This document shows, piece after piece, positions 2,407-25,871 of a DNA stretch of 55,915 bases. This DNA comes from Nitrospirota bacterium. Its GTDB lineage: Bacteria > Nitrospirota > Nitrospiria > Nitrospirales > UBA8639. Location: contig JAQBUF010000018.1 in assembly GCA_027623995.1 (NCBI GenBank), positions 1 to 55,915 of the forward strand, read 5' to 3'. The notes beneath the pieces are model-generated. The model worked only from the letters and a program-made list of their open reading frames with translations, ran no database searches and was not told the DNA's origin. Positions within the stretch are counted from its first letter, which is position 1. Each line of letters opens with the position of its first letter. Position numbers and translations under genes: made by a program.

Positions 2407-3282
2407 TTAGGATGTATTTCGACGTTTGTGTTCGACAATGTGTAATGCCTTCACGCTTGTTTCTTTGACGAGGACTCCCATTTTGGGGTGGCTGGGTTCC
2501 AAGTCTACCGGAAAGTCATACTCGTGGAGTCGTTGACTCGTGATGGTCCCGATGGAGGCCACCATGATGCGATTCAGTGCCTGTCGAAAATGGTTGAGGT
2601 TATTGGATCTGTTGAGCAGTTCCACGATATGAGTGACTTGGATACCGGTGGTAAACAAGATAACATCCACCGATTGAGAAAGAATGGCTTGGAGCACGTG
2701 TTGTAACGGTTCGACATTATCCGGGAGCGCCCAGCGATACACGGGCACACCAATGACGTGAGCTCCTCGGGTTGCCAAGGCCTTCATCAATTTCTCGTTG
2801 GTAGTGCCATATTCTTGGATCCCGATGGTTAATCCGGAGAGCCCCTCAGGTCTATAGGAATCTAGAGTGCTAAGAATGTCTTCCCAGGTGTTGGGCTCTG
2901 GCACGATAAGTTGTGGTTTAAGGGCTAATTCCTTTAAGGCCCCCAGTGGTTTTGGGCCACGAACGACCAAGGTGGTTTGGGTCAGTGCCTGCTTGATGTC
3001 GTTCAAAGAAAATTGCGTTTTCCAAACATCCACTAATGTTCTGGTGCCAACTCCGGTCAGTAAAATGAAAAGGTCAATCTGTTTCGACAAGAGTTGTTGG
3101 CCAAACGCAAGGGCTTCGGAATTATTCTCCAAAGGAATTTCTTGCATGGACGGTGCTACGAGGGGGTTGCCACCATGTCTTGCAATGAGTTTCCCCATTT
3201 GATCGGCCATGCGGCTTTCGAAGGCAGCAACCGTCAACCCCGAAAATCCAGTTGGTTGGTCTGCGCTAGAGGGAAGGGACAT
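2407..3282 (-). CDS. hemD: Uroporphyrinogen-III synthase
   Basis: The 291-aa product matches the two-lobed HemD fold, in which the two halves repeat the same alpha/beta topology. The N-terminal lobe opens with LTVAAFESRMADQMGKLIARHGG and continues IDLFILLTGVGTRTL. The second lobe has LTIGIQEYGTTNEKLMKALATRGAHV, VDVILFTTGIQVTHIVELL and the late VASIGTITSQRL segment. The enzyme closes hydroxymethylbilane with inversion of ring D to give uroporphyrinogen III, the branch point to haem, sirohaem and cobalamin. The start has GGAG five bases upstream. It is transcribed away from the VOC gene, and no other haem gene is adjacent. Confidence 0.85.
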   Translation of the reverse strand: MSLPSSADQPTGFSGLTVAAFESRMADQMGKLIARHGGNPLVAPSMQEIPLENNSEALAFGQQLLSKQIDLFILLTGVGTRTLVDVWKTQFSLNDIKQALTQTTLVVRGPKPLGALKELALKPQLIVPEPNTWEDILSTLDSYRPEGLSGLTIGIQEYGTTNEKLMKALATRGAHVIGVPVYRWALPDNVEPLQHVLQAILSQSVDVILFTTGIQVTHIVELLNRSNNLNHFRQALNRIMVASIGTITSQRLHEYDFPVDLEPSHPKMGVLVKETSVKALHIVEHKRRNTS

Positions 3283-3368: not shown

Positions 3369-3806
3369 ATGGCTGAAGAACGATTAACCAACATTCCCTC
3401 CACCAGAGGGTTACGCCATGTGGCGTTAAAGGTGAGCAATCTTGCCACCTCTAAAGCGTTTTATCAAACTTGGTTCGGGATGCACATTGTGTGGGAGCCT
3501 GATGCCGAAAATGTGTATATGAGTTCAGGTGTCGATAATCTTGCACTTCACCAGATTCCCGGTGAGGAACTTCACGAACATCAACCGCACCGCGGACAGT
3601 TTTTAGATCACTTGGGGTTTTTGATGGAATCCCCTGAACGGGTTGACCAACTGTATAAGTTGGTGGTTGAAGATGGTGTGAGCATTGTTCATCATCCGAA
3701 ACAACATCGAGATGGAAGTTATTCTTTTTACCTTGCCGATCCTGATCACATCGTTGTTCAAATTATGTATGAACCAAATATTAGCGCGATTCGGTTTTCT
3801 TCCTAA
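3369..3806 (+). CDS. VOC (glyoxalase/dioxygenase-like) family protein
   Basis: The 145-aa product is a single vicinal-oxygen-chelate module pair. It has LRHVALKVSNLATSKAFYQ at the N terminus, a second beta-alpha-beta unit beginning FLDHLGFLMES, and it ends with YLADPDHIVVQIMYEP. The His of RHVAL, the His of LDHLGF and the Glu of MYEP fall where the metal ligands of this superfamily lie. In-frame starts exist upstream (3282, 3327). I chose the ATG at 3369 because it directly precedes the first beta strand. The next gene starts 25 bases after the stop on the same strand, so the two are probably co-transcribed. The substrate is unknown: glyoxalase I, extradiol dioxygenase and fosfomycin-resistance types share this fold. 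Confidence 0.75.
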   Translation: MAEERLTNIPSTRGLRHVALKVSNLATSKAFYQTWFGMHIVWEPDAENVYMSSGVDNLALHQIPGEELHEHQPHRGQFLDHLGFLMESPERVDQLYKLVVEDGVSIVHHPKQHRDGSYSFYLADPDHIVVQIMYEPNISAIRFSS

Positions 3807-3831
3807 CCATATAGAAATCATCTGAGTGACT

Positions 3832-5454
3832 ATGGCGATTTGGGATCAATTTAGATCAGATCAATTTGTGGGGTTGCATCCCTGGGTGTGGGTGCAATTA
3901 GAGAGCTCTGAGCCACCGGGTCCGTTTCCGTTTATGGGTGGGGTTGATCCAGAAGTGGTGTCGAGCCTTCATGAAGTGCATAGCACGCTCATGAGTTCAG
4001 TGGAAACCGCAATCAGTGATGTGTTTGCACACCGGACGTCAGTGGATGACCCCGAGATCAGTCGTCGTCTTGAGGATGCGTATGCGGAAGTGGTGCAAAC
4101 CCGGCCACGACTGAAGGAGCACATTCGTTGTGGGAGAAATCCTGACGGCACGTTTGTCTGGGAATTTCCTTACGATCGAGACAAGTCTGCGGCGATGAAT
4201 TATGGTGGATTGCGGATTTTCAATTCCGTCAAACGCCAAGCCATTCCTTTTGGATTTGATCGGCCACTGTCGCCATTCGTGGGAAAGCTCTTAGGATTTT
4301 TGAATGGCACGAGAACCGTTGGAGAAATTTGTACGATTGCCACTGCTTCGGGTCGTGAGATTGAGCGGCATCTGACCAAACTCGTTGAGCAATTGGCGAC
4401 GCATGAATGTTTGACGATATCAGATCGATCTTCGGTCCGTACCTATTGGATGGATTCTACGAAGGATCAAGACATGGTCCACCTGGGTCATGCGGCCTTG
4501 ATGTACCGACAGCAAAGTCAGTTTTTGTGGTTTGATCCTTGGCTTATGCCATGGTTTGCGGAGTCTTCCGTCCCTTCTCTGTGGACGACGTTGTTACCTG
4601 CGCCAGCGGCCGTATTTTTGACTCATGATCACGATGATCATGTGGATCCTCGAACGCTGCTGCACCTTCCAAAAGATGTGCCGATGATTATTCCGAGTCG
4701 GAAAAACCGACAAGCGTTGTATTTCGATTATCTCTCGCTCATGCGAGAACTTGGATTCACGAATGTGATTGAATTGGCCCATGGAGAGTCATGGAAATTT
4801 TATGGCGGGGAAGTCGTGTCGGTTCCGTTCTATGGAGAAGATCCTTGTGATCTGGCGCTACCGAGAAATTGTTATCTTATTGCGGATCGAGGTCACAATA
4901 CCTTAGTCCATGCGGATAGCGGTCCAACGAATGAGGGCCTCTCGGCCATAGACAATGGCGTGATGGTCGATCTCGTGAATAAGTATGGTTCGATTCCTAC
5001 CATCTATGCCTCACAACAACAGTTAAAAGAAATTCGTTCGTATGCGGCACATGCGAGTTTGTCTCATCCGGGGAAGTGGTTAGATGTCGGGGAAAATGGG
5101 TTTTTGACGAATCAGTATTTGTCAGAGTTAGCCGCTCAAGCGAAAGCCAAACTGTTTATTTCCTATGCGACTGGCGGCGCGGATTGGTACCCCGATCATT
5201 TGTCATTCATGTTCAGTCATCGGAACCCGGCGCGAACCGCCTTACTCACGGCTCATTGGGATTCTCCAGAATCCCTCAAAGAAGATCTCGCGCCTTTGGG
5301 ATGTTCTTACCATCACGGGCAGGCCTTAGATATTGTTCGAGTTCATGAAGACGGTCAGGTCCGCGTTCACTCAAGCTCTGATTCTTTGGCTCCACCAGGA
5401 CTGTATCAATTAGATCACCAGCTTCCGACAGAGCTAACGGGCACTCCACGGTAG
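3832..5454 (+). CDS. Metallo-beta-lactamase-fold protein with PqqD-like N-terminal segment
   Basis: The 540-aa product starts at the ATG at 3832; a GTG lies two codons earlier. Residues of about 143-196 look like a PqqD-type winged helix (LLGFLNGTRTVGEI... followed by LTKLVEQL), the recognition fold used in peptide-modifying systems. From about 210 it is a metallo-beta-lactamase domain of the UlaG-like kind. The zinc motif H265-x-H267-x-D269-H270 is clear (THDHDDHVDP), and later His/Asp positions include HADSGPTNEG and YPDH. The first 140 residues are unfamiliar. It follows a VOC gene by 25 bases. It is likely a cytosolic metallo-hydrolase or oxidase; the substrate is not known. The fusion is discussed in the findings. 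Confidence 0.75.
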   Translation: MAIWDQFRSDQFVGLHPWVWVQLESSEPPGPFPFMGGVDPEVVSSLHEVHSTLMSSVETAISDVFAHRTSVDDPEISRRLEDAYAEVVQTRPRLKEHIRCGRNPDGTFVWEFPYDRDKSAAMNYGGLRIFNSVKRQAIPFGFDRPLSPFVGKLLGFLNGTRTVGEICTIATASGREIERHLTKLVEQLATHECLTISDRSSVRTYWMDSTKDQDMVHLGHAALMYRQQSQFLWFDPWLMPWFAESSVPSLWTTLLPAPAAVFLTHDHDDHVDPRTLLHLPKDVPMIIPSRKNRQALYFDYLSLMRELGFTNVIELAHGESWKFYGGEVVSVPFYGEDPCDLALPRNCYLIADRGHNTLVHADSGPTNEGLSAIDNGVMVDLVNKYGSIPTIYASQQQLKEIRSYAAHASLSHPGKWLDVGENGFLTNQYLSELAAQAKAKLFISYATGGADWYPDHLSFMFSHRNPARTALLTAHWDSPESLKEDLAPLGCSYHHGQALDIVRVHEDGQVRVHSSSDSLAPPGLYQLDHQLPTELTGTPR

Positions 5455-5558: not shown

Positions 5559-6302
5559 ATGACTGATCAAACCATTCCCACCACAGACCCCGATAAAAAA
5601 GAATCTTTTCCAGAAACCGTGACCATCGTTGGTGTCAAGGTCCGTAATCAGGGTGAAGTCAAGCAAGCTCGGACGCATGATCCTTCTTTAAGAGAAGGAG
5701 ATTGCGTGTTGCTTGAACTTGATGACGATGTGACCTATGGGACTGTGTTTGGTACGCCGAGTGTGCTCCCCTTTACCCCTCCCATGCGAGTCATGAAAAG
5801 TGTGCTGCGCAAAGCCACGGAGGAGGATGATGCCAATATTGTGACTCAGCAAAATGTGGCTGTGGCGGGAGTCGAGTACTGCCGAGCACGAGCCGCGGCC
5901 TTAGGGTTACAACTGAAGTTGGTGGAAGTGTATGGGTCGTTTCAGCATCGTGTCCTCACCTTTTGCTATACCGCAGAATCGCGTGTGGATTTCCGTCAAC
6001 TGGTCAAAGACCTTGCTCGGCAGTTTAGTTGTCGCATCGAAATGCGCCAGATTTCTAGCCGTGATGAAGCCCGTCGCCTTAGTGGCGTCGATACCTGTGG
6101 CTTGGTCCTCTGTTGCGCGAGTTTTTTGTCAGATTTCAAACCCGTGAATTTAAAGTTGTCCAGAAAAGAAAGCGTGTGGGGGAATGACACCCACCGGATT
6201 GGAGTCTGTGGACGACTCAAATGTTGTTTGATGTTCGAACAAGATGATTGGCCAGCAACACGTCAGAGCCGATCTCCCCTCATTCAAGTGAAACGCTCAT
6301 AA
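5559..6302 (+). CDS. PSP1 / RicT (YaaT)-like protein
   Basis: The 247-aa product has an N-terminal beta-rich part (VTIVGVKVRNQGEVKQA) and a PSP1 C-terminal domain from about 75 to 160. The RicT signature cysteines follow: C180, C185, C186, C217, C222, C223 (DTCGLVLCC and GVCGRLKCCLMFE). In Bacillus RicT, cysteines in this pattern help hold an Fe-S cluster shared with partner proteins, and the complex affects RNA processing. In non-sporulating bacteria the role is unclear. The first 17 residues are polar and probably disordered. No strong Shine-Dalgarno sequence precedes the ATG. It lies about 100 bases after the MBL gene and 140 bases before the DsrE-like gene, all on the plus strand. Confidence 0.85.
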   Translation: MTDQTIPTTDPDKKESFPETVTIVGVKVRNQGEVKQARTHDPSLREGDCVLLELDDDVTYGTVFGTPSVLPFTPPMRVMKSVLRKATEEDDANIVTQQNVAVAGVEYCRARAAALGLQLKLVEVYGSFQHRVLTFCYTAESRVDFRQLVKDLARQFSCRIEMRQISSRDEARRLSGVDTCGLVLCCASFLSDFKPVNLKLSRKESVWGNDTHRIGVCGRLKCCLMFEQDDWPATRQSRSPLIQVKRS

Positions 6303-6443
6303 TCCCGGATCACAGTTTCTACAGTTGAATATAGACTTGGCATTCGTCTCGCACTTTCTGTTGCAGGGGAAGAGAGCCAAAGCTATAATCACGTCGCCAA
6401 TCTCCTTGTTCACTCTCGTCTTTCAACAAAAGAGCTGTATCCA

Positions 6444-6863
6444 ATGAGTTCCCCGCCCCGTTTTATCATCTACGCCCATAATGCGACCTACGACAAATTG
6501 CATCAGGTGGCGACGTTAGGGCTCACGGCGGCTGCCATGGGAAAAGAGGTGACGGTGATCCTACTGTTTTGGACAATTAAGAAGTTGGCTGAGGGTAGGA
6601 TCAATGAGGTTGATTTCCCCCCTGAATACCAAGCGTATCATGATGAAGTTTCGCGTTTAATTTCTGAAAAAAAAGTTCCAAAAATTTCTGAGATGTTCGC
6701 GGATGCAAAAGATGTTGGTCAATTTCGACTGGTAGCTTGTAGTGCGGGATTGGAATATATGGGTGTGGATGCCGATGCGGTGGCGAAAGCCGTAGATGAA
6801 GTGATGGGGCTGCCGGCTATTTTGGCGATGGCGGCAGGAGCCGAGACGACGTTGTTTATTTAA
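6444..6863 (+). CDS. DsrE-family-like small protein
   Basis: The 139-aa product has the DsrE/F alpha-beta pattern. It opens with a hydrophobic strand (RFIIYAHNATYDKLHQVATLGLTAAAMGKEVTVILLFW), which matches the sulfur-relay-like fold. A later strand carries a single conserved-looking Cys (LVACSAGLEYMGVD, residue about 99), and an Ala-rich helix closes the protein. Proteins of this type carry sulfur as persulfides or act in membrane-associated redox roles. Only one Cys is present, so a trans-sulfuration role is possible but unproven. AAAGAG stands about 10 bases ahead of the ATG. It is likely the last gene of the run that begins with the VOC protein, although the gaps of 100-140 bases allow separate promoters. 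Confidence 0.7.
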   Translation: MSSPPRFIIYAHNATYDKLHQVATLGLTAAAMGKEVTVILLFWTIKKLAEGRINEVDFPPEYQAYHDEVSRLISEKKVPKISEMFADAKDVGQFRLVACSAGLEYMGVDADAVAKAVDEVMGLPAILAMAAGAETTLFI

Positions 6864-25796: not shown

Positions 25797-25871
25797 GCGG
25801 GAATAGCTCAGTGGTAGAGCATCGCCTTGCCAAGGCGAGGGTCGAGGGTTCAAATCCCTTTTCCCGCTCCA
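25797..25871 (+). tRNA. tRNA-Gly (GCC)
   Basis: The cloverleaf is complete. The acceptor is GCGGGAA/TTCCCGC, the D stem GCTC/GAGC, the anticodon stem TCGCC/GGCGA with loop TTGCCAA (anticodon GCC), and the T arm GAGGG/CCCTT with TTCAAAT. The discriminator T is followed by an encoded CCA (25869-25871). Confidence 0.97.

Follow-up and report, generated by a model that had tools for sequence, protein, structure and literature searches.

The closest relatives of known structure of the protein presented here are two diiron oxygenases with a metallo-beta-lactamase (MBL) fold. CmlA (PDB 4jo0, 5kik, 5kil) is the beta-hydroxylase of the chloramphenicol pathway. FrsH (PDB 8a90) belongs to the FR900359 pathway; according to passages of PMC7794379 it is a CmlA-family diiron monooxygenase which hydroxylates a leucine bound to a nonribosomal peptide synthetase (NRPS). 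A related gene, here denominated P, was found in a Nitrospirales genome, in a stretch of 55,915 nucleotides (contig JAQBUF010000018.1 of assembly GCA_027623995.1) referred to below as the window. As given in a preliminary description of this DNA, P encodes a protein of 540 aa, and its ATG (3832) is found 25 bases past the end (3806) of a gene for a vicinal oxygen chelate (VOC) enzyme. P may belong to the CmlA/FrsH branch as a diiron oxygenase dependent on O2, equipped with a domain resembling the recognition elements (RREs) of ribosomally synthesized and post-translationally modified peptides (RiPPs). It would modify a peptide or a protein and be part of the gene core of nitrite oxidizers. Taken as a whole this reading is tentative, and falls a little short of being evenly balanced. 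Residues are numbered below from the GTG at 3826 (542 aa); positions in the ATG protein are obtained by subtracting 2.

The catalytic domain is poorly recognized by Pfam, which returns Lactamase_B_2 alone (E 6e-5, below the curated cut-off). A sequence search of the PDB retrieves CmlA (E 6e-9) far ahead of the best hydrolase (0.1), and a profile search gives CmlA at 1.6e-12, FrsH at 1.9e-10 and the best hydrolase at 0.003. Full-length P was modelled with AlphaFold2 from 37 sequences (predicted local distance difference test, pLDDT, 80; predicted template modelling score, pTM, 0.85). Structural comparison aligns the model with FrsH (Z 22.5, root-mean-square deviation, rmsd, 3.8 over 381 residues) and CmlA (Z 21.7, rmsd 4.2 over 384 residues). 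These are the only entries, among the 50 listed, which cover both halves of the model, all others beginning at residue 202 or later; CmlA and FrsH are also on top in Foldseek (E 7e-18). H267, H269, D271, H272, E338, D364 and the pair D457-H458 are identical in 81/81 sequences, and the HxHxDH motif is intact, as had been noted before. CmlA and FrsH have a glutamate in the E338 column, except for PDB 5kil, titled as the CmlA E377D mutant, which reads D. The hydrolase human NAPE-PLD has no glutamate there, and in an alignment of 16 sequences the residue is found in all rows but the hydrolase-like L118. In the CmlA class the HxHxDH residues, the glutamate (E377 in CmlA) and a bridging aspartate are presumably the metal ligands. 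Judging from sequence and model, the MBL-fold domain of P is quite likely a diiron oxygenase rather than a hydrolase, with two irons as its putative metal content and an oxygenation as its putative reaction. The metallo-beta-lactamase domain of the preliminary description is thus probably not a hydrolase.

Residues 1-212 were also modelled alone (45 sequences, pLDDT 84, pTM 0.64). The check proposed earlier for this region came out in favor of a predicted winged helix, for which ThcOx is the best structural match (Z 9.4 and 9.2, rmsd 2.6-2.7, 87-91 residues). Next come NovN (7.6) and GdmN (7.0), both as carbamoyltransferase parts, TbiB1 with its leader peptide (6.9) and TruD (6.8); MINA53 (6.2), PqqD (5.3) and TbtB (5.2) are found in lower rows. 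RRE-bearing proteins or PqqD make up 9 of the first 17 rows, ThcOx, the heterocyclases and TbtB being counted as RRE carriers. Since the best row extends from residue 11 to residue 201 with 87 residues aligned, the predicted fold would have strands in 11-27, an insert at about 28-125, strands in 126-143 and three helices, a layout drawn from the aligned ranges and from the secondary structure of the model. The insert is rich in invariant residues, among which P31, G32, P33, E83, D84, A85 and Y86. The first 140 residues had been described as unknown; they are probably not a separate domain, because the structural alignments begin at residue 11, so that the first strands seem to belong to the same fold, and most of what follows is probably the insert. 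The PqqD-type winged helix of the preliminary description survives as a winged helix, supported by the predicted structure, but not as PqqD, which gives just Z 5.3. Assignment to PqqD by sequence was discarded, as the Pfam model PF05402 missed 19/19 orthologues. The segment LNGTRTVGEI is located in the winged-helix part as indicated, but within one of the least conserved stretches. The isolated model does not have CmlA or FrsH among the best 50 entries listed, a result which excludes nothing. On the evidence of the model, residues 1-212 probably adopt an RRE-like winged helix interrupted by a conserved insert.

Distant relatives of P are encoded by plasmids, and the surroundings of seven were viewed. 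Three, from hits of 25-28% identity, are of RiPP type. The relative from Streptomyces pADI95-16a adjoins LanC-like, GrrM and lantibiotic dehydratase genes, the one from Pseudanabaena (pPg_03) adjoins LanM and Nif11 precursors, and both share the catalytic glutamate of P. The third, from S. europaeiscabiei (L102), is more distant and has YcaO and DUF692 genes alongside; judged by eye, the glutamate motif of this protein is not clear. The Streptomyces MBL-fold protein at L102:5995-7704 carries, by eye, a PqqD-like segment at the C-terminal side. Two surroundings (L117 and L119) are of NRPS type, one (L118, Agrobacterium) is a conjugative plasmid region fitting neither type, and one (L116, Burkholderia) is unannotated DNA. 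In a tree of 16 rows P groups with RiPP-associated rows; support (85/86) is not strong, branches are long, and there is a risk of false attraction between NRPS and hydrolase rows. L116 is labelled RiPP in the tree despite its unannotated surroundings, and L102 was left out of tree and alignment because of the unclear motif.

The distribution of P was monitored in 40 relatives of the genome hosting the window (G000) and in 198 genomes across the phylum Nitrospirota; f1 to f4 are family labels assigned by program. Orthologues, some truncated by contig ends, are present in 32/40 relatives and missing in G020, G021, G036, the four f4 members and G033, which has distant paralogues only. In the phylum set P is found in 55 of the 56 Nitrospirales, all f1 or f3; the 142 other genomes have no orthologue, bar one weak match (G190, E 1e-4). 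The majority of the genomes sampled from three Nitrospirales families keep P. Two paralogues deserve mention. A distant one of 614 aa in G038 (L106:1488-3329) has, by eye, two PqqD-like segments ahead of the MBL domain; another in G033 (L107:4617-6161) reads HQDIDH where HxHxDH is expected, one metal histidine being thus replaced by aspartate. A molybdopterin-family search led to the nitrite oxidoreductase genes nxrAB of the own genome (L115), which were picked out by eye on their length and signal sequence; every statement on nitrite oxidoreductase rests on that. Among the rows listed, NxrB matches of at least 84% identity are limited to Nitrospirales. No NxrB match was found in 10/40 relatives, which are the four f4 genomes, G036, and G002, G008, G009, G028 and G039.

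In f2 an orphan gene of about 618 aa, p618, is located immediately upstream of P (L126 in G030, L129 in G024, a contig of G038, and L111 in G027, where p618 is in two frames). The same order is found in L078 and, cut off, in L075, both from genomes without family placement; in G170 p618 adjoins, in divergent orientation, a second copy of P (L105). A p618 gene is present in 34/40 relatives, the same 34 being returned by a profile search. Of these, 31 have P and three (G020, G021, G036) have not; in G036 p618 meets the contig end where P would come next. One relative (G009) has P without p618, and five, including all four f4, have neither. In the phylum set p618 is found in 54/56 Nitrospirales, P being present in 53 of those; outside the order there is one weak match containing stops. 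Single-sequence searches with p618 gave no match in Pfam, the PDB or plasmids and no meaningful match in NCBIfam, its profile gave a chance-level PDB match only (E 1.6), and Pfam Methyltransf_23 matched one of eight members (E 0.003). Neighbors of p618 in 12 genomes and L105 are, by eye, pyrimidine genes in one family and pilus-like genes in another, and no pathway emerged from them. About 4 kb from p618 in the own genome, genes resembling by eye those for a bacterial ubiquitin-like protein, its ligase and a proteasomal ATPase are found (L144:258-3796).

In three f2 genomes nxrA starts close to p618, at about 0.7 kb (G030), 0.6 kb (G038) and 4.6 kb (G024), divergent from p618-P. In G116 nxrB is 3.2 kb from P, and it is at about 11 kb in G176, G182 and G213, which are from one genus. 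The chance of falling in a random 12-kb neighborhood is about 0.5-2% per genome. Proximity of P to nxr is suggestive of a link to nitrite oxidation and does not prove it. Past P in G030, in convergent orientation, are found two genes for B12-binding radical S-adenosylmethionine (radical-SAM) proteins, the first of which is also present in L075; in the own genome this pair is away from P (C106). In NCBIfam they come nearest to PhpK-type and RiPP-maturation methyltransferases, with scores far below the cut-offs. The first gene of the pair is kept at no less than 73% identity in 32/40 relatives. G027, G028, G033, G036 and the four f4 genomes are the exceptions, with best matches no better than E 5e-18.

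Since the N-terminal domain is RRE-like, holding of a substrate leader or tail is its most likely mode of action. A peptide or protein would be bound by this domain at its leader or tail, and the putative diiron site would hydroxylate or oxidize a residue nearby. That the substrate is a peptide or a protein is conceivable, though somewhat doubtful. P would probably act in one pathway with p618, perhaps also with the tandem B12-radical-SAM pair, and such a pathway would serve the maturation of the nitrite-oxidation machinery or the making of a peptide-derived cofactor. It is rather unlikely that the four genes make up a pathway, not described before, of RiPP-like or protein-modifying kind which nitrite-oxidizing Nitrospirales share and whose product would be required for nitrite oxidation. 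Such a product could be, for example, a residue modified within the nitrite oxidoreductase system, or a cofactor of that system derived from a peptide. The place of P in the nitrite-oxidizer core is a matter of genomic association only. A peptide- or cofactor-modifying step had been proposed from the start. The proposal gains from the RRE-like fold, to a moderate degree, from the likeness to CmlA and FrsH, from the three relatives of seven in RiPP clusters and from the B12-radical-SAM genes after P in two loci; it loses from the two relatives in NRPS-type clusters and from the failure to find a substrate peptide.

Several observations weigh against this reading of P. In the full model pLDDT is under 50 at 270-272, 338-342 and 449-477, which are parts of the active site, and the site geometry is not to be taken from the model. 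For the isolated N-terminal model Z reaches 8 or more in just 3/994 chains, and lower values, that of PqqD included, can reflect a common arrangement. The carbamoyltransferase parts outrank most RREs, and the best Foldseek match, TbiB1, is not significant at E 0.47. PF05402 matched none of 19 orthologues from 21 genomes at E <= 0.01, and profile comparison of P with two PqqD proteins by hhalign gave nothing, though the tiny template makes that test uninformative. Passages of the RRE-Finder article (PMC7470986) state that the PqqD model PF05402 overlooks the majority of RREs from other RiPP classes. Conservation of the winged-helix part is among the lowest in P, which is odd for a domain binding a conserved leader. 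Two of the viewed relatives are in NRPS-type surroundings. No linked precursor was spotted either, as the best family of conserved short open reading frames (ORFs) outside larger genes and within 2.5 kb of P is found in 6/81 loci.

The link to nitrite oxidation is similarly exposed. No nxr gene was found in 80 P loci, nor in L078, L075 and L111 (G027), and in 14 of 19 genomes having both genes on one contig, collected by hand, nxrB is 147 kb to 3.2 Mb from P. In f1 and f3 p618 is unlinked to P. The five relatives with P and no NxrB match have been named above; seven P-bearing genomes of the phylum set (G028, G039, G122, G143, G146, G148, G152, two of which are shared with the relatives) have no match either, and G020, G021 and G033 have NxrB without P. 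Assemblies often break at repeated nxr copies, so that such mismatches may be gaps. The four f4 genomes lack P, p618 and any NxrB orthologue. Core genes of an order co-occur anyway, and the shared profile of the three genes therefore rests chiefly on f4.

Other explanations of P have been considered. P could be a CmlA-type beta-hydroxylase acting on a carrier-tethered amino acid, the RRE-like domain being an N-terminal domain of the whole class which docks the carrier. CmlA and FrsH align over 375-384 residues, beginning at residues 3-14 and ending at 506, where lactamase-only entries of the same list cover 201-268, and since they align over the N-terminal part their own N-terminal domains probably resemble that of P. 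FrsH works on a carrier-bound leucine according to the same passages of PMC7794379, and L117 and L119 are surrounded by NRPS-type clusters. Nevertheless the CmlA_N model PF18456, which matches L117 at 1e-70, has no match at E <= 1 in 37 P orthologues, P included; NRPS or carrier genes are not among the 13 commonest neighbor families, named by eye; and the tree, within the limits given above, places P with RiPP-associated rather than NRPS rows. We hold this explanation to be unlikely.

About as little favored is a small-molecule oxygenase or lyase working with the VOC enzyme, the winged helix being vestigial; we rate it unlikely too. The VOC gene is a frequent neighbor, the winged helix is poorly conserved, and the RRE-Finder article (PMC7470986) allows, in the passages cited, that some RREs may be vestigial. 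The VOC gene is nevertheless found apart from P, as detailed below, and the two relatives sharing the catalytic glutamate of P are found in RiPP clusters. Lastly, an ordinary metal-dependent hydrolase of UlaG/NAPE-PLD type with an accessory domain would fit the lone Pfam match and the fold, as hydrolases reach Z 19.9. It is improbable in the light of E338, which is Glu in 81/81 sequences, and of the invariant YA of the YAxG motif. Hydrolases presumably have a metal-binding histidine at or beside the places of E338 and YAxG. Neither NAPE-PLD nor L118 has Glu in the E338 column.

The coordinates of P, of its parts and of the genes discussed with it are listed below.

Table. Position of P, its domains and motifs, and associated genes (window coordinates unless a locus or contig is named)
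Feature	Coordinates	Strand	Basis or remarks
P, with RRE-like N-terminal domain and CmlA/FrsH-type MBL-fold domain	3832..5454	+	540 aa from ATG 3832; sequence and structure comparisons
Predicted first strand(s) of RRE-like fold, residues 11-27	3856..3906	+	AlphaFold2 models; structural alignment
Predicted insert in RRE-like fold, residues 28-125, conserved, probably mainly helical	3907..4200	+	Secondary structure of model
Predicted remainder of RRE/PqqD-like winged helix	4201..4428	+	Strands 126-133, 138-143; helices 149-158, 165-174, 177-192; includes LNGTRTVGEI
MBL-fold catalytic domain, residues 213-506	4462..5343	+	Pfam, PDB sequence search, structural comparison
HxHxDH metal motif, residues 267-272 (H267 H269 D271 H272)	4624..4641	+	Invariant in 81/81 sequences
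E338, in the column of the CmlA and FrsH glutamates	4837..4839	+	Invariant in 81/81; alignment
D364, putative bridging ligand	4915..4917	+	Invariant in 81/81; aligned with Asp of CmlA and FrsH
Y447-A448 of YAxG motif common to CmlA and FrsH	5164..5169	+	Invariant in 37/37; aligned
VOC (glyoxalase-fold) gene, ATG 3369	3369..3806	+	Pfam Glyoxalase match
Gene resembling uroporphyrinogen-III synthase (HemD-like, named by eye)	2407..3282	-	Divergent neighbor in 63/70 loci
p618	L126:4745-6598; own genome G000:C9:41203-42858		Found here in Nitrospirales only; middle strongly conserved
Tandem B12-binding radical-SAM pair	L126:8590-12436; own genome G000:C106:24534-28360		50% identical to each other

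VOC genes were counted by tblastn in the 78 loci having enough DNA. The gene is upstream of P, on the same strand and within 1.1 kb, in 75 of them; in L039 the distance is 1.7 kb, and L075 and L078 are without the gene. H46, H110 and Q160 (numbered from the TTG at 3282) are invariant in 57 aligned copies. Six of the 40 relatives (the four f4 genomes, G033 and G036) have a VOC gene without a P orthologue, and in G024, G027 and G038 VOC and P are on separate contigs. VOC is thus more widely distributed than P and is not its obligate partner. Both genes are gone in G020 and G021, the pattern expected of one lost stretch. In seven loci (L017, L032, L040, L066, L067, L068, L079) a gene of about 148 aa, presumably of the four-helix-bundle or intervening-sequence type, is located between VOC and P. 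The preliminary description had proposed a survey of homologues for conserved neighbors. VOC proved to be frequent but not obligate, small peptides were not found, and radical-SAM genes are present in two loci. Its remarks that neither a radical-SAM gene nor a precursor peptide is visible in the window hold true, as none of the 26 radical-SAM matches of the genome is on this contig, and the short ORFs within 2.5 kb of P are as rare as reported above. Conserved short ORFs evaluated as precursors were rejected, as they coincide in position with large genes, VOC and HemD-like ones among them.

On the 3' side of P are PSP1-like and DsrE-like genes, named by eye (window 5559-6863), which are near P in 20/81 and 31/81 loci, respectively. 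At gathering score Rfam matches the window once only, at a tRNA gene (25797-25868). Promoter-like signals near genes show no excess (2 found, 3.2 expected). A phage or virus origin of P was discarded, as no relative was confirmed among viral contigs, and so was membership in a defence system, PADLOC having no match for P or VOC at E <= 0.01.

Bacteria of the Nitrospira type rank among the major nitrite oxidizers, and genes of unnamed function which they share offer a direct route to what this lifestyle needs. The spread of P in nitrite-oxidizing families, together with the proximity of nxrA in three f2 genomes, hints at an oxidative modification. The data suggest an extension of the CmlA/FrsH class to peptide substrates, and CmlA and FrsH may themselves have N-terminal domains related to an RRE. 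CmlA/FrsH-type catalysis joined to an RRE-like domain is a variant not described before in the literature searched; in titles and abstract beginnings of open-licence PMC texts retrieved with narrow terms, neither an RRE fused to a CmlA-type domain nor this Nitrospira gene was found.

P resembles in part each of several known systems. With the RREs of ThcOx, TbiB1, TruD and PqqD it shares, in the N-terminal model, strands followed by three helices (Z 5.3-9.4); it differs by the big conserved insert past the first strands, and by lacking a PF05402 match and a detected precursor. PqqB is reportedly an MBL-fold iron hydroxylase of pyrroloquinoline quinone synthesis, and is said to serve, as P might, the hydroxylation of a peptide-derived substrate, but without a fused PqqD. 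The likeness to CmlA extends to the fold across both halves, HxHxDH, the glutamate (E377), the aspartate aligned with D364, and YAxG, whereas P has no CmlA_N match and no NRPS gene was seen among its commonest neighbors. FrsH gives the top Z (22.5) and shares the motifs; it has 14% identity to P over the structural alignment, and its substrate is NRPS-bound leucine in the passages cited (PMC7794379). Also comparable are the pADI95-16a and pPg_03 proteins of RiPP clusters, annotated only as 'MBL fold metallo-hydrolase'. Like P they have the GE-type glutamate, HxHxDH and no CmlA_N match at E <= 0.1; unlike P, to which they are 23-28% identical, they are linked to RiPP synthetases, and pPg_03 also to precursors.

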